Positions 33,310-42,640 are shown, counted from the stretch's first letter. The stretch is 64,000 nucleotides of DNA from Bacteroidota bacterium (GCA_022709695.1 JAKLII010000002.1:216955-280954); one strand, 5' to 3'. Notes: generated by a model not told the origin, from the sequence alone. Program-made: numbers and translations.

Positions 33310-34527
33310 TTATTTGCAAAATTCCCTTTTAGCTGCAGCAGCTTCTTGATCCCCTAACTCGGCGGCTTTGGAGAAATCTAAACATCCGCTATCCTTTTGG
33401 CCTAATTTTAATTTACAAAGCCCTCGGTTATAAAAAGCATCAGGATCATCAGGCTTAAGTTCTATTGCCTTGGTAAAGTCAGCAATAGCTCCTGTGTAGT
33501 CTTGAAGATCAGTTTTAGAAGCTCCTCTGTTATAATGAGCAAATGGATAATCAGGCTTAAGTTCTATTGCCTTGGTATAGTCAGCAATTGCTCCTCTGTA
33601 GTCTTGAAGATCAGCTTTAGAAACTCCTCTGTAATAAAAAGCATCAGAATTAACAGGCTTAAGTTCTATTGCCTTGGAATAGTCAGCAATTGCCCCAATG
33701 TTGTCTTGAATTGCAGCTTTAGAATACCCTCTGTTAAAAAAAATATCAGGATTATCAGGATTATATTCTATTGCCTTGGTAAAGTCAGCAATTGCTCCTC
33801 TGTGGTCCTGAAGTGCAGCTTTTGAATATCCTCTGTTATAAAAAGCAAATGGATAATCAGGCTTAAGTTCTATTGCCCTGGTGTAATCCGCAATTGCTCC
33901 CTGGTTGTCTTGAAGGGCAGCTTTAGAATTTCCTCTTTTAAAAAAAGTATCGGGATAATCAGGCTTGAGTTCTATTGCTTTTGTATAGTCAGCAATTGCT
34001 CCTCTGTGGTCTTGAAGTGCAGCTTTAGAATATCCTCTGTTATTAAAAGCAACTGGATTATCAGGCTTAAGTTCTATTGCCTTAGTATAGTCAGCAATAG
34101 CTCCTCTGTGGTCTTGAAGTGCAGCTTTTGAATATCCTCTTTTTAAAAAAGCATCAGAAATATCAGGCTTAAGTTCTATTGCTTTATTATAGTCAGCAAT
34201 TGCTCCACTGTAGTCTTGAAGTGCAGCTTTCGAATGACCTCTGTTATAAAAAGCAAAAGCATAATCAGGCTTAAGTTCTATTGCCTTGGTAAAGTCTGCA
34301 ATTGCTCCTCTGTAATCTTGAAGTGCGGCTTTAGCATATCCTCTGCCATAATAAGGGACAGGATTATCAGGCTTAAGTTCTATTGCCTTGGTATAGTCAG
34401 TAATTGCTCCTCTGTAGTCTTGAAGATTAACTTTAGCAACGCCTTTGTTATAATACTCTTCTGCTGTTTGTCCAATGGAACTTGAGAAAAGGATAAATGT
34501 CAGGAGTGTGGTTATGAGAATTCTCAT
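33310..34527 (-). CDS. Secreted TPR-array protein
   Basis: 405 residues. Signal peptide (ending SSIGQ), then eleven 34-residue TPR units on the consensus PxAFYNRGYSKAALQDxRGAIADYTKAIELKPDx; the last is degenerate. The units are so alike that the DNA itself is a 102-bp tandem array (33420-34480), a sign of recent expansion or gene conversion. TPRs mediate protein-protein contacts, here in the periplasm or outside. AT-rich compared with neighbours. Confidence 0.85.
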   Translation of the reverse strand: MRILITTLLTFILFSSSIGQTAEEYYNKGVAKVNLQDYRGAITDYTKAIELKPDNPVPYYGRGYAKAALQDYRGAIADFTKAIELKPDYAFAFYNRGHSKAALQDYSGAIADYNKAIELKPDISDAFLKRGYSKAALQDHRGAIADYTKAIELKPDNPVAFNNRGYSKAALQDHRGAIADYTKAIELKPDYPDTFFKRGNSKAALQDNQGAIADYTRAIELKPDYPFAFYNRGYSKAALQDHRGAIADFTKAIEYNPDNPDIFFNRGYSKAAIQDNIGAIADYSKAIELKPVNSDAFYYRGVSKADLQDYRGAIADYTKAIELKPDYPFAHYNRGASKTDLQDYTGAIADFTKAIELKPDDPDAFYNRGLCKLKLGQKDSGCLDFSKAAELGDQEAAAAKREFCK

Positions 34528-34892: not shown

Positions 34893-35257
34893 TTAATGTT
34901 TTATGACTACCTTTTTCAATGTAACACCATACTCGCCTGTAACCTTCAGCAGATAGATGCCATTGGGGAAGCAGGACACATCCAAACAGCCGGTCCTCTG
35001 TTCTGCTATGGAACCTTCCAGCACCTTCTGACCGTTGATGTTCAGTAGTTCAATGCTTGCATCCAATGGCTTTTCAAAGGTGATGTCAAGGATGTCGCTG
35101 GATGGTTTCCCACACTGCTGTAATCGCTGGCATTACCGGTAAAGCCCCACCATCCGACCAGACCGTTTGTGGGTACATAGGAGGGAAGTTGTGCGGTTGC
35201 CGTTATTGACAGACACGTGCAGGAAACGGCGAATAAAAGAAGGTGCATCTTTTTCAT
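34893..35257 (-). pseudogene. LamG-type T9SS protein reduced to its two ends
   Basis: From the ATG at 35257 a signal peptide and the start of a concanavalin/LamG-type protein (LPSYVPTNGLVGWWGFTGNASDYSSVGN) run to about 35110. There the frame changes to SSDILDITFEKPLDASIELLNINGQKV ... GIYLLKVTGEYGVTLKKVVIK, a type A sorting tail ending at 34893. The whole middle, normally several hundred residues, is missing and the frames do not agree. A single internal deletion explains it. Confidence 0.8.
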
Positions 35258-35314
35258 AACAAAGCAGTTTGGATTGGATTTGTCATACAGTTGGAAAGGA
35301 AACAAAACAAAATA

Positions 35315-35362
35315 TCAAGGTACGATACCGGAAAGGGATTATCAATCGCATAAAGTAGGAAG
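35315..35362 (-). promoter_or_regulatory. Response-regulator box, copy 3 (R3), with degenerate -7
   Basis: TTATCAATCGCATA and AAGTAGGA (35339-35360) match R1 and R2 with a one-base gap. The minus-strand box TACCTTGA (35322-35315) sits 16 bp away. This is the old promoter of the LamG pseudogene. Confidence 0.5.
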
Positions 35363-35383
35363 GCCGGAGGGCTCTCAACCCCT

Positions 35384-35400
35384 AACCCCCGAAGGGGGTT
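35384..35400. other. Short perfect hairpin downstream of the FISUMP gene
   Basis: AACCCCC-GAA-GGGGGTT, 7-bp stem with a 3-nt loop, about 55 bp past the FISUMP stop. No T run follows on either strand, so a terminator role is uncertain. Confidence 0.4.
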
Positions 35401-35455
35401 GTGTATGTCGCCGGGCAGCACCTCCATGATCATCAATTGCCAACCTCCAATAACG

Positions 35456-36715
35456 TTAATCCTTCAGGCAACGGACGGAAAAACCTGATTTCTTGGCTCT
35501 TTTTTCCAGATCTATCTGAACACCATCATGAAATAATGCAATCACCCAAGCGTCGATGTTATCGTAGATCGTAGAGGTCCGCCAGCGTCCCTGGTTGCCA
35601 AAATCATTGAATGACGCACCGGCGCAATAAAGTCCTCCCCCGGGCAAGGCTGAAAACCCGCTGGAGTTGGTGGCCCCCGTGTTAGGGCTATTCCAGAGGC
35701 TGGTCGATTTCATTTCCCCTCCGGCCACAAGTTCTCCACCAAGCTGATTGTATAGAACCGTCCATTCGGCATCCGATGGAACGTGCCAGCCAACCGGGCA
35801 TAAATAGCCTGTGTCAACCGCATACCAGTTGTACAATGCTCCATAGGTTGCCGAATAGGAGATGGAATCATTATTATAATAGCAACGTGCACTTGAAGTC
35901 AGGTTGACAAAGGTCGCAATGTCCGTGATGTTGGGAATGACCCACCCGTTGCTGTGCCTGGTGGTATTCAGATTCTCCGCCATCCAGGTCTGTGCGCCAA
36001 TAGTCACCACGGGGTAGTGGTTACCGTCGCCATCGGTGCAGCCGATGAAGTTGAAATCCAAAGTCTGGCTCTGGGTGGGCACAAGCGTTACAACCCTGGA
36101 GTAATTGCCCGAGATTCCTTTGAGGAGCAGCCGCTCCCCGGCGTTGTACTGCATCTGGATGGTGCCAAAAAGTTTTGCATGGGGGGAATTAATGCTGCCA
36201 ATTTGACCCTGGCGGAAATAGGGTTGATCCGTGCTGGTACTCAGGGAAATTAGTCTGTCCGTAGACTGTTTGCACGATGTTTTCACCCGGACGGTATAAA
36301 GCCCCTGTTGAAGCCCGCCTGCACTGAATGTCTGGATTCCCTGCTGCATGTAGGCCTCTTCCCTGATCACAAGTTGCCCGGCCAGGTTCGTGATGTCTAT
36401 GGAAACCCTGCCTGCCTGTGGATTTTCAAATGCAATCAGGCATTCACCTGCCACAGGGTTTGGGTAAATCTTTAATCCTCTCTCCTCACTACTTCCACTT
36501 ATCTCCACAACCCCTATGGAAGTCACAAGTTCCAGAATATCCGCCCCGTTCAGGGTCAGTGTTGTTCCCTGGGTAAGGTTTTGTACTTTAACGGTCGATA
36601 CGACAGAGCTTAATCCAGAGCCTGTGAAGGTGATCTGGTAGGGTTGGGCAATCAGCAAGGATGGGTCATTAAAAAAACCTATCAGCAATGATGAAATTAC
36701 CATTAGTTTTTTCAT
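35456..36715 (-). CDS. FISUMP-domain secreted protein with an internal sorting-tail-like domain
   Basis: 419 residues. Signal peptide, then at ~80-160 a domain reading ERGLKIYPNPVAGECLIAFENPQAGRVSIDITNLAGQL ... QGLYTVRVKT, which is the type A sorting fold but lies internally. The C-terminal half (~230-419) is a Fibrobacter succinogenes major paralogous domain: DGNHYPVVTIGAQTWMAENL, ALYNWYAV, CPVGWHVPSDAEWTVL, GFSALPGGG, FSVRCLKD. Function unknown; surface-associated. It lies directly downstream (35 bp) of the response regulator gene and may be co-transcribed with it. Confidence 0.85.
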   Translation of the reverse strand: MKKLMVISSLLIGFFNDPSLLIAQPYQITFTGSGLSSVVSTVKVQNLTQGTTLTLNGADILELVTSIGVVEISGSSEERGLKIYPNPVAGECLIAFENPQAGRVSIDITNLAGQLVIREEAYMQQGIQTFSAGGLQQGLYTVRVKTSCKQSTDRLISLSTSTDQPYFRQGQIGSINSPHAKLFGTIQMQYNAGERLLLKGISGNYSRVVTLVPTQSQTLDFNFIGCTDGDGNHYPVVTIGAQTWMAENLNTTRHSNGWVIPNITDIATFVNLTSSARCYYNNDSISYSATYGALYNWYAVDTGYLCPVGWHVPSDAEWTVLYNQLGGELVAGGEMKSTSLWNSPNTGATNSSGFSALPGGGLYCAGASFNDFGNQGRWRTSTIYDNIDAWVIALFHDGVQIDLEKRAKKSGFSVRCLKD

Positions 36716-36750
36716 ACGATCACAGATATTAAATTTCTATTTTGGGAACA

Positions 36751-37380
36751 TTATATATTCCTTCGAAAAGCTCTATTGATGGCATCAGTACGCGAATGAA
36801 CATGTAACTTTTCATAAATATTCCTCACATAGGTTCTCACTGTCTCGAGACCAATGTGCATCATTTCAGCAATTTCTTTGTACTGGTATCCTCTGGCCAA
36901 TTGCTGTAAAAGTTCCATCTCACGTGTGGTCAGCCCTTCCAGCCCTTCAGGTATCTGGTTGGCCTGGTGGAAGTTCTGGATCACATACCGGGCGATCTGG
37001 GCCGACATCGGGGAACCGCCAGCAACTATTTCCCTGATAGCCTGAATTACCTTATCGGGGGTTGAGTTTTTCAGAATGTAGCCGGTAGCGCCGGCACAAA
37101 GTGCCGCAAAGGTGCGCTCCTGGTCCTCGTGCACACTAAAGATGAGGAACTGCACTTCAGGTTTTAACGGCTTCAGCTTCGAGACGCAAGCGATGCCGCT
37201 GATTCCGGGCAGGCTGATGTCCATCAGCACTACATCCACCTCCAGATCCTGGTATACCTCCATCAGGTCCTCCGCCTGTTTATAAGACCCGACCACCAGG
37301 ATGCCGTCTGCCTCCGAGAGAAAGTACTCCATCGAATAGCGCACATCCGCATCATCCTCCACAATGGCAATCCTGATCAT
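36751..37380 (-). CDS. NarL/LuxR-type response regulator
   Basis: 209 residues. Receiver domain with acidic pocket EDD (8-10), phosphoacceptor Asp54 (VDVVLMDISLPG) and conserved Lys near 104. LuxR-type HTH (~147-205): LTTREMELLQQLARGYQYKEIAEMMHIGLETVRTYVRNIYEKLHVHSRTDA. Cognate kinase is the TPR-histidine kinase upstream in the same direction. The gene is preceded by a motif copy (R1), suggesting autoregulation. Confidence 0.93.
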   Translation of the reverse strand: MIRIAIVEDDADVRYSMEYFLSEADGILVVGSYKQAEDLMEVYQDLEVDVVLMDISLPGISGIACVSKLKPLKPEVQFLIFSVHEDQERTFAALCAGATGYILKNSTPDKVIQAIREIVAGGSPMSAQIARYVIQNFHQANQIPEGLEGLTTREMELLQQLARGYQYKEIAEMMHIGLETVRTYVRNIYEKLHVHSRTDAINRAFRRNI

Positions 37381-37390
37381 GATTTTTTTG

Positions 37391-37439
37391 TAAATTTAAG
37401 GTGCCATACAGCGGTTGTCAATCACATATAAGTAGATAT
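37391..37439 (-). promoter_or_regulatory. Response-regulator box, copy 1 (R1), with -7-like element
   Basis: TTGTCAATCACATA then TAAGTAGATAT (plus-strand reading 37415-37439) lies upstream of the regulator gene. The minus-strand box TAAATTTA (37398-37391) is 16 bp closer to the gene. The last base deviates from TAnnTTTG, as expected for an activator-dependent promoter. Confidence 0.6.
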
Positions 37440-37440
37440 C

Positions 37441-39900
37441 TCATACCCCTGCTACCGGGCCCTGCAACAGGATGTGGGTGCCGGGAACCTCCTGCGGAAC
37501 AATGCTGAAGGTACCTCCCACACTCTCCATACGCTGCCGCATGTTCTTCAGGCCATTCCGGTGATTGTTTTCAGATGCCTTGCCTATGCCAATACCGTTG
37601 TCGGCAATGAGAATCCGGTACAACGGTCCATCGACCCTGAAATCTACCTGCACGGAATCTCCTTTGGCATGCTTCACCACATTGTGCAGTGCCTCCTTGA
37701 TCACGGCGAAAAGGGTTCGTTTGACATCCGGATTGAAGCGCATACCGTTCCGTTTCTCGGGGAAGGTTACGTTTACCTTGTAGCCCGTTGGTTCAAAATA
37801 CTCCATGATGTAGGTCCGCAGATAAGCGTAAAATCCCTCCAGGTTGTCGCGGTCGGGGTCGATGGCCCAGATGATCTCCCCAATTCGCTCCACTGCTGCC
37901 CGGGACGACTCCGCAATCCTGTCAATCACCCCGCCAACAGAGGCATATTCGGCCTGTGCCACCTTCCTGCCGGCCATCTCGCACAACCAAACGATCCTGG
38001 TGAGGCCACTGCTGATTTCATCGTGCATATCCTGCGATATACGCCTGCGGATCGCCTCCTTCTCCTTCTGCTTCTCCGTTTCGATGAGCTGGGCCTGTGT
38101 TTGCTGAAGCTTACCCAGGGTTGTGGAGAGCTCCTCATTGCTCCCTTTCAGCAAAGCATTTACCTGATTGATCTCATTATTCAGCGCCTGCAAACGACGG
38201 TTGAACTTCCGCTGCTTCCTGATATTCCGGAAAAGGTATAACAGGAATATCAGGCTTGCCAGGATCAGTCCATACGAAATATTCCGCTGCAGTGACCTGA
38301 TCCTGATTTTCTGGCCAGCCAGCTCATGCTCCCTTCCAAGCAAAGCAAGCTGCCTCTCTTTCGCCTTATTTTCCAGGTCCACCACCTGGAGGTCCGCCAT
38401 CTTCTGCAGGTAGGCCAGGTGGCTCATCTCCTGCTCCTTGCGGCTCAGATCCAGCTCCTTTGATTGCAGCAGGCGTGCCTGTTCACTGGTCTTAAGCAGC
38501 AACAACTTTTGCTGCAACATTTCTGTTGACACCCGGGCATTCAGGTCACTCACCTCCTTTCCATGGCGCAGTTCCCTCTCTCTGGCCTCAAACTCATACT
38601 GCATCTCCCTGCGCTGGATCTCCTTCAGCTTCTGGTTGTTGTTCAGGGAATCCCGGATGAGGATGTGCGCCTGGTAATAGTACAGGGCGGAATCAAACCG
38701 CCCCATGCTTTCATGCACCTGTGAAAGTCTTTTTAAAGCTAGTCTTTGCTTGTCGAGGTTTTTCAGGGTATCAGCCATGGCAAGCGCCTGGTGCAGGAAC
38801 GGAAGGGCTTTATCAAACTGTCGCATCCAATAATAGGTCTCCCCGATAAGGTAAAGAACAAAGTTGTGGGAAAACCAATTTTTTGTCATCAAAGTCAACT
38901 CCAAATCGCTGTAAAGAAATTTCAGGGCTAATTCATGCTGACTGGTAGCTCCGGATTCATAACCCCGAAAAGTACCATCCCTTCTAAGCATCTCATAATC
39001 CGCATCACAAAGGTTGCTCAGTCTGTTTGCCAGGTTCATCCGGGAAAAACTGAGAATCCCGTAATTTGAATCTGCCAGTCCGATTTCATAGGCATCCAGT
39101 AAGTAGTTGAAACATATTGATTTGTCAGAATGGTTTAGGTAAGAAATACCGATATTCAAGTTCACCTGGGCCATTCCCATTCTATTGCCCAGATCCTTGT
39201 AACAGATGAGCGATTTTTCATAATATTCACGTGCTTTGTCAACCTCATTCAGATAGTTGAATACATTGCCAATATTCATGTAACAATTGGCAGCTTTATT
39301 TTTGTCCTTTGCCTCCTCAAAGAAAGCAAGGGCTTTCAGGTGATAGTTCAGCGCTTCCTGATAATCACCCATTATGCAGTAGATTACCCCAAGATTATCC
39401 TGATTGGCGGCTACTCTATCTTTTAATCCAATGGATTTATTGATCGCTTCGGCATTCAGAAGCAGTGGAAGGGCTTTGGCACCTTTGCCCGAGTTAATCA
39501 GGACATTGCTATAATTATGAATTAATCTTGCAATCTCGATGCTGTCGTTGATTTCCTTTGCCAGCTTTATGGCTTCCTCATATGCGAGTTCGGATTTCGG
39601 GATATTGTCCATGGATGACCAGGCCTGTCCCATCAGATTGTATGCCTCGATCATTGACTTCTTAACCCTGAATTTTTCCGCAAGGGATTGTGCCTCTCCG
39701 CAATACGAAATGGCTGCATTAGGATTTTTTTTAACGATGGCGCCAGCTAGCTCCAGCAGCAATCTGCAACGCGTCGTATCTCTTTCCTGATGTGCCTGAA
39801 GTTCTCTGGTCAGAGTGGTTTCCCGGGAATCCTGCGCCAATGCGGGGTATTGACAGGTCAACAGGATCAATAATCCCAGAAAGAGGAAATATTTTTTCAT
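37441..39900 (-). CDS. TPR-containing sensor histidine kinase (HisKA_3 type)
   Basis: 819 residues from the ATG at 39900 (MKKYFLFLGLLILL signal/anchor). A longer reading to 40041 lacks a signal and crosses the promoter, so it is rejected. N-terminal periplasmic TPR array (~60-430), a coiled coil (~450-560), a single membrane helix (YGLILASLIFLLYLF), then a cytoplasmic coiled coil. HisKA_3 dimerisation helix has phosphoacceptor His626 (RRRISQDMHDEISSGL); HATPase_c has KEALHNVVKHA (N box) and ADNGIGIG (G1). It senses an unknown extracytoplasmic signal and should phosphorylate Asp54 of the NarL-type regulator 60 bp downstream. Confidence 0.92.
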   Translation of the reverse strand: MKKYFLFLGLLILLTCQYPALAQDSRETTLTRELQAHQERDTTRCRLLLELAGAIVKKNPNAAISYCGEAQSLAEKFRVKKSMIEAYNLMGQAWSSMDNIPKSELAYEEAIKLAKEINDSIEIARLIHNYSNVLINSGKGAKALPLLLNAEAINKSIGLKDRVAANQDNLGVIYCIMGDYQEALNYHLKALAFFEEAKDKNKAANCYMNIGNVFNYLNEVDKAREYYEKSLICYKDLGNRMGMAQVNLNIGISYLNHSDKSICFNYLLDAYEIGLADSNYGILSFSRMNLANRLSNLCDADYEMLRRDGTFRGYESGATSQHELALKFLYSDLELTLMTKNWFSHNFVLYLIGETYYWMRQFDKALPFLHQALAMADTLKNLDKQRLALKRLSQVHESMGRFDSALYYYQAHILIRDSLNNNQKLKEIQRREMQYEFEARERELRHGKEVSDLNARVSTEMLQQKLLLLKTSEQARLLQSKELDLSRKEQEMSHLAYLQKMADLQVVDLENKAKERQLALLGREHELAGQKIRIRSLQRNISYGLILASLIFLLYLFRNIRKQRKFNRRLQALNNEINQVNALLKGSNEELSTTLGKLQQTQAQLIETEKQKEKEAIRRRISQDMHDEISSGLTRIVWLCEMAGRKVAQAEYASVGGVIDRIAESSRAAVERIGEIIWAIDPDRDNLEGFYAYLRTYIMEYFEPTGYKVNVTFPEKRNGMRFNPDVKRTLFAVIKEALHNVVKHAKGDSVQVDFRVDGPLYRILIADNGIGIGKASENNHRNGLKNMRQRMESVGGTFSIVPQEVPGTHILLQGPVAGV

Positions 39901-39938
39901 CTGTACGGGATTGATCAGAAAAATATATTGAGAAGATT

Positions 39939-39946
39939 CAAAGATA
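39939..39946 (-). promoter_or_regulatory. Bacteroidota -7 element (TATCTTTG) of the kinase gene
   Basis: Perfect match on the minus strand, 38 bp upstream of the ATG at 39900. The kinase is thus not under the box found before the regulator. Confidence 0.55.
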
Positions 39947-39975
39947 CGAACAGAATATGCCTTTTCTGCAATGGA

Positions 39976-40022
39976 TATTAAAAACTTTGAGGCCGGGCAA
40001 AAGTTACCGGGCCTCAAAGTTT
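39976..40022 (-). terminator. Strong terminator of the 791-residue T9SS gene
   Basis: The perfect 13-bp stem AAACTTTGAGGCC/GGCCTCAAAGTTT (39982-39994, 40010-40022) is followed on the minus strand by a T-rich run (TTTTTAATA). Confidence 0.85.
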
Positions 40023-40058
40023 CAATCTGATACAGGCACATTGAAAGGAGCCACAGAT

Positions 40059-42434
40059 TTATTTGGTAATGCTGACTTTTTCCACCGAACGGCCATCCCC
40101 GCAGCGAACTTCTACAAGATACATTCCTGCAGGTATGTCACTTACATCCATCAGGACACCATTGGCCCCGGGAGACACCAGATCATCCAGGCATCTGACG
40201 AGTCTGCCCATCATATCATACAGGCTTACCTTTACCACTCCTTGTTCCGTGGCATCAAAATCTACATTAAGCTCATAAGATGCCGGGTTGGGGTAAATCA
40301 TAAGATCTTCGAGTTCAAGGGTAGAGGAGGCGGATTTTGAGCAAGCGTATATGTTGACCAGAAGGTTATAGCATTTGTTGGGATCAAACGTGCCGTTGAG
40401 TGCCGAAACCTTGATATAGTAGGTGCCTGCTGCTGCCTTCGTATAATCAAAGCTGTAGGATACTCCGTATTGCTGGATAGGTGCCAGCAGGGTTCCCGTA
40501 GATTTATACAACTGAACCCGGAATGCGGGCAGATAATTGGTGAGTTCCACATGGATGCATTTCAGGGTATTGGTATTGTTGAACTTGTACCAGTCAACAT
40601 CCCCAAAGCTTCCAAGGCGCTCGGTAACGGGTGTGTTGGTACTGATCAGCTTGGCATTCGCCAGCGTCTCATTGGCTTCATAGAGGTCCATGCATGTTGC
40701 CGTCACAACATCCCTGATGGTTGACCAATTTCCGGGCGTACCACTACAGACACTCTGCACCTGATACTCATACCTTGCTCCGGAGACCAGGCTATTGATC
40801 GTAACAGGGCTGGTCACTCCGGAAGAAGTCGTCCATGTTGGATTGCCCACCAGGCGGTACTGCAGGTTGTACGCACCGGCTCCGGCAACGCTCTGCCACC
40901 CTATTTTAAGATTATCGGTTTTAATATCGTAGGCATTCACTGCCAACGGTGGGAGGCAACCCACTGCGGACATGTTTCTGTATCTGACGACGGCATAGGC
41001 GTCCCCTTCCGAAATCAGGCAATAATTTCCGGTACCCGGATCATAATCGCCCATATTAGATTCACATACGGCGAGCAAAATCAGGTTTTCTGCCGGATCC
41101 ATGCACACTTCCATGAATCCAACTCCCCAGCTTCCACTGGTCTTTTTGGCCCACTGAAAATTGCCCGAAGCATTGAGTTTGAGCAGAAAGGTCTCAAATG
41201 TTCCCTCGGTAGTTGGAGCTTCGAGATAGTAGGTTGCGCTGCTGGGATCGAAATCTGCCTTGCCATTCAAGGTACCCACGATATAGATATTTCCGGCAGC
41301 ATCCCTTGTCATGGCTCTCGAACTCACTGAGGTTCCGGAGACCAGTATGATTTCGCGGGTATATACCACGGCACCGTTGGATGAGTTGAGCTTTTGTAAC
41401 CTTGCAAGGGGCTTCGGTTTTGTAAGGTATTGGTTGATGTTCTTCAATGTAAACACTGAGCCTGCACCATCGGGGATGATGGCATAGGTGTTTTCTTCAC
41501 CTATGCTCCCTCCCGAGACTTTAGCCCAGACAAGGTTCCCGTCATAGACCCGGATCTCGTAGGCGTCTCCCAGGGAGTTTGTATTTGTACCGGTAACGGG
41601 GTAATAGCCCACTCCGGGATCGAGGTCGCATACGGCTCCGGGAATCGATCCGCCTGCATAGATATCCCAATGGCCATTCGCATCGGTGTAGCCGGAAATG
41701 CAGATGACATTCATACCCTTAATACCGCCCATACAACCAGCCCAAACGAAGTCGCCGGCCGGAGTGAGCCTTAAAAGGAATGCATCGCTGGCGTAAGTGG
41801 AGGGTGCAGTGGCAAGCGTTGAGGTAAGATTGTAGACAGCGCTCCCGGGATCCATGTCGACCGTTCCCGTAAATTGTCCCCCAACGCAGATGTAGCCTGC
41901 ATTGTCCACAAATACCCTTTCAAGATCGTCAAGTCCGGTACCACCGAATTGCTTCACCCATTGAATGACTCCATAGGGGTCGATTTTCATCAGGAAACCG
42001 TCTTTGTTCCCTGCTGAGGTAAGCTGGATGCCTCCAAACTGACAGGAAGTGTTAAAATAACCTACCACATAGATGTTTCCTGAGGCATCGGTGCTGATGC
42101 TGCTCGACTGCTGCGAGGCACCGCTCAGACCGCAATGCAAGCCCCACAGGTAGTTGCCATCGTTGTTGAGCTTTATAACAAGGAAGTCTCGATCTTGCAG
42201 GCCCGAGGTCGAAACCATTTGCACCCCGCTGCCCGGATCAAGGTCCATGTTGCCGGAGAAATCACCGGTGAAGATGATATTCCCGGCGGCATCCATGACC
42301 ATGCCTTGCTGGCTCCAGGTGTTGCTGCCGGTTAAGCCAAAGTTACGTGCCCAGTCGAATTCGTGCGAAGTCTGGGCAAACATGGATCCTGACACCAGGA
42401 GCCCGATGAGAAACGTGCAAAGGTACTTTTTCAT
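40059..42434 (-). CDS. T9SS type A protein with SBBP repeats, Fn3 and PPC domains
   Basis: 791 residues. Signal peptide, then SBBP-type repeats (~25-480: GNIIFTGDFSGNMDLDPGSGVQMV, GNIYVVGYFNTSC, ...). A fibronectin III module (~500-590, LKIGWQSVAGAGAYNLQYR) follows, then a pre-peptidase C-terminal-like domain (~600-700, LGSFGDVDWYKFNNT) and a type A sorting tail (LMIYPNPASYELNVDFDATEQG ... GMYLVEVRCGDGRSVEKVSITK). Large surface protein of unknown ligand. It carries motif copy R2 in its promoter region, so it is the likely main target of the neighbouring two-component system. Confidence 0.85.
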   Translation of the reverse strand: MKKYLCTFLIGLLVSGSMFAQTSHEFDWARNFGLTGSNTWSQQGMVMDAAGNIIFTGDFSGNMDLDPGSGVQMVSTSGLQDRDFLVIKLNNDGNYLWGLHCGLSGASQQSSSISTDASGNIYVVGYFNTSCQFGGIQLTSAGNKDGFLMKIDPYGVIQWVKQFGGTGLDDLERVFVDNAGYICVGGQFTGTVDMDPGSAVYNLTSTLATAPSTYASDAFLLRLTPAGDFVWAGCMGGIKGMNVICISGYTDANGHWDIYAGGSIPGAVCDLDPGVGYYPVTGTNTNSLGDAYEIRVYDGNLVWAKVSGGSIGEENTYAIIPDGAGSVFTLKNINQYLTKPKPLARLQKLNSSNGAVVYTREIILVSGTSVSSRAMTRDAAGNIYIVGTLNGKADFDPSSATYYLEAPTTEGTFETFLLKLNASGNFQWAKKTSGSWGVGFMEVCMDPAENLILLAVCESNMGDYDPGTGNYCLISEGDAYAVVRYRNMSAVGCLPPLAVNAYDIKTDNLKIGWQSVAGAGAYNLQYRLVGNPTWTTSSGVTSPVTINSLVSGARYEYQVQSVCSGTPGNWSTIRDVVTATCMDLYEANETLANAKLISTNTPVTERLGSFGDVDWYKFNNTNTLKCIHVELTNYLPAFRVQLYKSTGTLLAPIQQYGVSYSFDYTKAAAGTYYIKVSALNGTFDPNKCYNLLVNIYACSKSASSTLELEDLMIYPNPASYELNVDFDATEQGVVKVSLYDMMGRLVRCLDDLVSPGANGVLMDVSDIPAGMYLVEVRCGDGRSVEKVSITK

Positions 42435-42544
42435 GATTGACAGATTTTAATGCAACATCAGATTCCAATCGATTCTAAGACTGATAATCAATAATTTGAT
42501 GTGGCAATTGAGACCTGAAGCAAGATACAGCCTTAAAACTGTTC

Positions 42545-42593
42545 TAAAAGTACATTGCCAGAAAGGGCTTGTCAATCACATAAAAGTAGATAT
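42545..42593 (-). promoter_or_regulatory. Response-regulator box, copy 2 (R2), with -7-like element
   Basis: TTGTCAATCACATA then AAAGTAGATAT (plus-strand reading 42569-42593), 24 of 25 bases identical to R1. The minus-strand box TACTTTTA (42552-42545) is again 16 bp away, giving the T9SS gene a ~105-nt leader. Confidence 0.6.
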
Positions 42594-42613
42594 TTTTCAG
42601 TCATACATTATCT

Positions 42614-42621
42614 TACCTTTG
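42614..42621 (+). promoter_or_regulatory. Bacteroidota -7 element (TACCTTTG) of era
   Basis: Perfect match, 19 bp before the era ATG. Confidence 0.6.
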
Positions 42622-42640
42622 CCCAAAATCACCCTCCGCT

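Follow-up and report, generated by a model that had tools for sequence, protein, structure and literature searches.

The 64,000-nucleotide window analyzed here, one strand of a Bacteroidota bacterium (GCA_022709695.1 JAKLII010000002.1:216955-280954), carries a short text that recurs upstream of minus-strand genes for a response regulator and for T9SS proteins, and it thereby raises the question of whether the repeat is the site through which that regulator controls its own gene and its neighbors. The first-pass annotation had proposed autoregulation together with NarL-type control of the adjacent surface proteins. The placement and rarity of the site, its tracking of the regulator, and its recurrence in relatives support that proposal: the motif is very probably the operator of the adjacent NarL-family regulator, abutting the -33 element, and would serve both autoregulation and activation of T9SS surface-protein genes. 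No earlier description of this operator was found in the searchable open-access literature.

Repeated sites and promoter elements in the window

On the minus strand, the one that carries the genes, the motif reads TCTACTTWTATGTGATTG, and the repeated text in its full form is ATATCTACTTWTATGTGATTGACAA. The text TTGTCAATCACATAWAAGTAGATAT was located at 37415-37439 and 42569-42593 (0 mismatches with W; the copies agree at 24 of 25 positions), as originally reported, and no copies are expected from 100 dinucleotide-preserving shuffles. The third, decayed copy described near 35339 proved to be real as well. Its minus strand reads CCTACTT-TATGCGATTGATAA, with a 1-bp deletion and several substitutions relative to the full 25-mer; being one base shorter and changed at several positions, it lies beyond 3 mismatches of the 25-mer, and it was recovered at 3 mismatches once the -7 box was included in the pattern. 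All three copies were checked to lie upstream of minus-strand genes, namely, those of the response regulator, a 791-residue T9SS protein, and a LamG/T9SS pseudogene. Together with the -33 TTG, the candidate operator of the regulator promoter occupies 37419..37436 (minus strand; TCTACTTATATGTGATTG), beginning 4 bases past the kinase stop codon, and that of the 791-aa gene occupies 42573..42590 (minus strand; TCTACTTTTATGTGATTG), within the divergent region common to this gene and era (plus strand). The decayed operator before the pseudogene lies at 35343..35359 (minus strand; CCTACTTTATGCGATTG).

Minus-strand -7-like boxes were found at 37391..37398 for the regulator (TAAATTTA) and at 42545..42552 for the 791-aa gene (TACTTTTA), each 20 bp past the TTG, and at 35315..35322 for the decayed copy and pseudogene (TACCTTGA). 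The claimed distance of exactly 16 bp between the end of the motif and the box held in all three cases, and it equals 20 bp from the TTG inside the motif. The motif had been treated as separate from the promoter, but it in fact includes the -33 TTG, for on the gene strand the motif ends in the Bacteroidota -33 TTG, and a TAnnTTTA-type -7 box follows 20 bp later. The consensus for the latter element in this phylum is TAnnTTTG at about -12 to -5 (PMC9723704). Since the TTG stands at the normal 20-bp distance for a -33 element, the motif amounts to a 16-bp block that abuts and partly overlaps -33 and is centered at about -43. The kinase, as first stated, has an ordinary promoter of its own, TTG-N22-TATCTTTG, with a perfect -7 element at 39946-39939.

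The presumed binder is a 209-aa response regulator (36751..37380, minus strand) comprising a receiver and a GerE helix-turn-helix (HTH) domain; both Pfam matches exceed their cut-offs (PF00072, 5e-23; PF00196, 1e-16), which places the protein in the NarL/FixJ (LuxR-type) architecture, and its closest PDB relatives are VraR and NarL. The kinase (37441..39900, minus strand) combines TPR, HisKA_3, and HATPase_c domains. The likely target at 40059..42434 (minus strand) encodes the 791-aa SBBP/fn3 protein with a Por_Secre_tail domain typical of T9SS cargo (PF18962, 7e-15). A 419-aa Fib_succ_major protein, also with a Por_Secre_tail, is encoded at 35456..36715 (minus strand), 35 bp past the regulator stop; its T9SS sorting domain is internal (residues 83 to 156), and the C-terminal form (PF18962/TIGR04183) is present in the 791-aa protein and in a LamG protein encoded on contig C1. 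Motif searches found no operator copy belonging to the 419-aa gene itself, so this gene is probably transcribed from the operator promoter of the regulator. The pseudogene (34896..35260, minus strand) was delimited by tblastn with its intact paralog on C1 (L024:8721-9698), of which it keeps only residues 2 to 54 and 255 to 325, in different frames, the LamG middle having been deleted.

Sites in the source genome and in relatives

Pattern searches were extended to the 3.39-Mb assembly. Contrary to the initial view that no copy exists beyond the 8-kb cluster, two further good copies were found, at C1:607656 and C19:61192, and the regulon is thus not purely local. The first (TTG-N20-TACCTTTA) precedes the intact 325-aa LamG protein with a T9SS tail, the paralog of the window pseudogene, and the second (TTG-N21-TACATTTA) precedes a regulator paralog that is 71% identical to the window regulator. 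Near-perfect copies (0 to 1 mismatch over 17 bp) number four in the genome, compared to none in the reversed control, and precede the two paralogous regulators, one T9SS gene, and one LamG/T9SS gene; the fifth, decayed copy precedes the dead LamG/T9SS gene. The sites therefore lie before two regulator genes and three genes of T9SS type, the latter being of two kinds and including one dead gene whose site is decaying, and apart from the regulators only T9SS-tailed genes follow them, which answers a check proposed at the outset. When the box and a spacing of 20 were required, only four sites remained at up to 3 mismatches (reversed control, 0); the C19 copy falls outside this pattern because of its spacing of 21 and differing spacer bases. 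Copies scattered without the -7 spacing had been named as evidence against a regulon, and the whole-genome search with box plus spacing yielded none and added no site at spacing 20. If the box is not required, background equals signal at 3 mismatches.

Regulator homologs (E<=1e-35, 32 to 59% identity) occur in 36 other genomes among the 393 of the order that were searched. The exact text TCTACTNNNATGTGATTG-N20-TANNTTT was present in 3 of the 393 (G000, G094, and G335), and these are the only genomes with a regulator at least 51% identical (Fisher, 1e-7); in a same-genus genome, the best regulator match was 28%, and no close regulator was present. The expectation that genomes lacking the regulator would lack the motif is therefore borne out for the exact spelling with its promoter. 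An exact 17-mer in G086 (C81:21369) was set aside because it lacks a correctly spaced -7 box, as were the 2-mismatch matches in G001 (9, versus 1 in the control), none of which has a box at spacing 20. The window-type spelling co-occurs with regulators whose recognition region is ETVRTY(V/L)R.

An alignment query found relatives of the regulator, and a protein query with the single regulator against genome contigs returned none. In the relatives, the kinase lies directly upstream of the regulator in 40 of 50 cases (tblastn), and its TPR part was found by blast in only a few of the loci. For 40 homologous regulators, an unsupervised motif search of the preceding 116 bp returned ACTACTAAAATGTGATTG with a log-likelihood of 146, versus 60 to 63 for three shuffled sets; the upstream length was limited to 116 bp because a 200-bp search locked onto the GNGLxNM coding motif of the kinase, itself a sign that the kinase gene immediately precedes that of the regulator. 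This motif lies mostly in the kinase-regulator gap, directly before a TAnnTTTG box and in the same position relative to -33 and -7. Related regulators in about 30 genomes are preceded, at the corresponding position, by a candidate operator of this type in a species-specific spelling (for instance, ACTACTAAAGTAGTA, TACCCGAAAGGGGTA, ATCCCATATTGATGGGAT, ATCATATATTTATATGAT, or GACCTATTAAGGC). Across species the half-sites covary (137 of 240 pairs complementary, versus 115.5 +/- 5.7 when permuted, with 0 of 10,000 permutations reaching the observed value), and operator spelling is correlated with the HTH domain of the regulator (Mantel r = 0.49; 0.35 after removal of receiver-domain distance, P = 0.0002), both statistics being somewhat inflated because the operators came from a motif search, that of L043 was placed by hand, and the sequences are related. 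Covarying halves are the mark of a site that would be read by a symmetric dimer. When a 7-2-7 arrangement was tried, covariation was centered on the family center and several relatives were near-perfect, and the window site, with 1 of 8 symmetric pairs, is a poor repeat.

The cleanest of the statistics is the test for a second site, which has gene-level controls. Among 37 testable loci, drawn from Bacteroidota and from the same order, 10 carry a second copy in their own spelling, with a -7 box, about 100 bp or less past the regulator stop; in the permuted-site test these loci reached P = 0.003, the floor of the test, and the next value was 0.16. Only 1 of 157 other genes of those loci reached such a value, owing to a tandem repeat (Fisher, 2e-7, or 6e-6 once L124, which is doubtful, and a duplicate from the same genus are left out). 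Four of the 10 loci were fetched independently, including L124, whose second site is followed by no gene and probably arose by chance. Nine of the 10 second copies precede genes with signal-peptide-like starts. T9SS tails occur on the putative targets at L071 and L080, within the 10, and at L077 and L178 in a wider scan; other genes behind second sites encode OmpA, PQQ/beta-propeller, or LamG proteins. In G094, G179, G284, G361, and others, the genome's own spelling recurs just past the regulator gene, 19 to 21 bp before a -7 box and ahead of a gene whose start resembles a signal peptide; a second exact copy in G335 precedes a secreted-protein start, and a third copy in G094 precedes the gene for a 275-aa exported protein. 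Only about one in four testable relatives yielded a second site, and none was found in the verrucomicrobial loci, few of which were testable.

Activation, repression, and other readings

The mechanism that we propose is as follows. A dimer of the regulator would occupy a predicted 16-bp 7-2-7 site, composed of inverted 7-base half-sites 2 bp apart and degenerate in the source genome, whose center would lie some 43 bp ahead of the transcription start. So placed, it would abut and partly overlap the -33 TTG, the promoter being of the housekeeping-sigma type and its -7 box weak, and the bound regulator would most likely recruit RNA polymerase in the manner of NarL at -35-abutting sites. The regulator would then boost expression of itself and of the Fib_succ_major/T9SS gene downstream and would switch on the 791-aa T9SS protein and the distant LamG/T9SS protein. 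We infer that the window regulator itself is the binder, that it activates rather than represses, that its action depends on phosphorylation, and that the TPR kinase is its partner. Because a second, paralogous kinase/regulator pair, encoded on a different contig, uses this site too, cross-talk between the two systems is probable.

The main alternative, unlikely in our judgment, is the reverse arrangement, in which the regulator bound over -33 blocks polymerase, so that autoregulation is negative and the surface genes stay silent until release. In almost all genomes examined, the site overlaps the -33 TTG, a placement that would also fit such occlusion. Against it, E. coli NarL activates yeaR and ogt from 7-2-7 sites immediately upstream of or abutting -35, the ogt site being centered near -44.5 (PMC7419079), and FimR, whose partner is the TPR-containing kinase FimS, is a direct, DNA-binding activator of mfa1 (PMC1974823, PMC11053733). 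By analogy with these promoters, activation from a site abutting -33 would be the most economical reading. The -7 boxes point weakly the same way. TTG and TAnnTT are spaced 20 to 21 bp apart in all five genome copies, and the final G of TAnnTTTG is missing from 5 of 5 boxes, as for promoters needing help. The first-pass annotation had argued from imperfect boxes to activator dependence; the imperfection stands for this genome, but many relatives have a perfect TAnnTTTG box, and the argument is correspondingly weak.

It is improbable that some other factor owns the motif, such as a CRP/FNR-type protein or an alternative sigma factor, with the regulator merely among its targets. A TGTGA half-site does lie inside the motif, and the case for the regulator is a statistical one built from sequence. 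However, both the -33 TTG and the -7 box are typical of housekeeping promoters, a CRP-type TGTGA is lost in relatives (GACCT..AGGC, TACCC..GGGTA, and CATAT..ATATG), and the genome contains only a handful of sites. Moreover, the site precedes regulators of this family, and its spelling shifts with their HTH domain. Still less probable is the view that the copies are functionless promoter DNA duplicated along with genes. Paralogy does link the LamG pseudogene to the C1 LamG gene and the two regulators to each other, and the similar spacers at 42569 and 35339 would allow shared ancestry, in part, of the region's three promoters. Yet the C1, C19, and 37415 copies have preserved the 18-bp site despite spacers that are unlike one another, the downstream genes belong to three unrelated families, and homologous sites persist in other families in another spelling that is matched within each genome. 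A chance repeat has nothing in its favor and is refuted, with 0 copies expected in shuffles and 0 in the genome-wide control.

Comparison with known systems

Returning to the regulator as owner of the site, we see evenly balanced prospects for a wider claim, that kinase, operator-preceded regulator, and operator-preceded exported surface protein form a widespread Bacteroidota module with private, co-evolved operators, perhaps reaching beyond the phylum; the Calditrichota locus L178 also shows this gene arrangement. Because each regulator would have co-evolved with a private operator, several insulated sensor-to-surface-protein switches per genome would be possible, and their wiring, if the claim is true, could be read from sequence alone. 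To our knowledge, few targets have been assigned to the many TPR-kinase/NarL-type systems of Bacteroidota. The regulator's own promoter would betray the operator, and the operator would point to the targets, T9SS-exported surface proteins, which gives a testable rule for predicting, in uncultured genomes, what an uncharacterized family of regulators controls. Half-sites that co-evolve would also offer material on DNA choice by NarL-type HTH domains and on insulated sensor-promoter pairs.

FimS/FimR of Porphyromonas gingivalis resembles the present system in pairing a TPR sensor kinase with a response regulator and in acting at a surface-protein promoter, as is predicted here. The window kinase has the same combination of TPR sensor domain and histidine kinase core, and its TPR part matches NCBIfam HK_Porph_FimS weakly, the kinase scoring 71.9 bits against a family cut-off of 600. 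The targets differ, being T9SS-tailed proteins here and fimbrial genes there; neither a FimR operator sequence nor FimR autoregulation was found in the searchable open-access literature. PorX/PorY-SigP, also of P. gingivalis, is a two-component system that acts on type IX secretion (PMC4800418), but it addresses the secretion machinery via an ECF sigma factor, whereas single cargo genes, predicted direct binding, and housekeeping promoters would characterize the system described here. The E. coli NarL/NarP proteins share with the window regulator the receiver-plus-GerE HTH family, the probable 7-2-7 geometry of sites in relatives, and a presumed site immediately before or abutting a -35-type element; in contrast to them, the present system has a Bacteroidota promoter (-33 TTG and -7 TAnnTTTG), a spelling that changes from genus to genus, and, in the window, a degenerate repeat.

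Operator spellings within one genome

In G094, another genome of the same order, three regulators belonging to the family of the window regulator were present (contigs C7, C14, and C28). The putative operators of two of these three were examined and found to be spelled differently (TCTACT..GTGATTG versus CACACA..TGTGATGG), and each spelling recurred at the neighboring exported gene of its own regulator.

Surroundings of the cluster in the window

The operator at 42569 lies upstream of the gene for the 791-aa T9SS protein, and the divergent era gene has its promoter, TACCTTTG, near 42616 (window 42594-42640). Since only about 25 bp separate this promoter from the operator, the predicted binding of the regulator might also affect era expression. 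Directly downstream of the cluster, a 405-aa protein composed of near-identical TPR repeats is encoded (window 33310-34527).

The paralogous system on contig C19

On contig C19 of the same assembly as the window, the kinase of the paralogous system (L026:1425-3890, minus strand) is split between its TPR part and the kinase core by a single in-frame TGA at codon 422. The gene may have become a pseudogene recently, or the stop codon may be an error in the assembly. Elsewhere on this contig (L026:9480-10460), a tRNA-Asn gene is adjoined by three 49-nt copies similar to the 3' part of the tRNA and by two 300-nt repeats, 97% identical, with an open reading frame that was judged by eye to be GIY-YIG-like. 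Together, these elements look like small units that were inserted at this tRNA gene.

A Calditrichota locus

At a Calditrichota locus (L178:6001-9496), the promoter of a regulator has a AAATAACCCAWWTGRGTAAT-type site in common with a gene that lies 965 bp downstream and encodes a T9SS-tailed protein, with mismatches at 3 of 20 positions. Because this locus lies outside the Bacteroidota, the operator arrangement linking regulator and T9SS gene may be older than that phylum.
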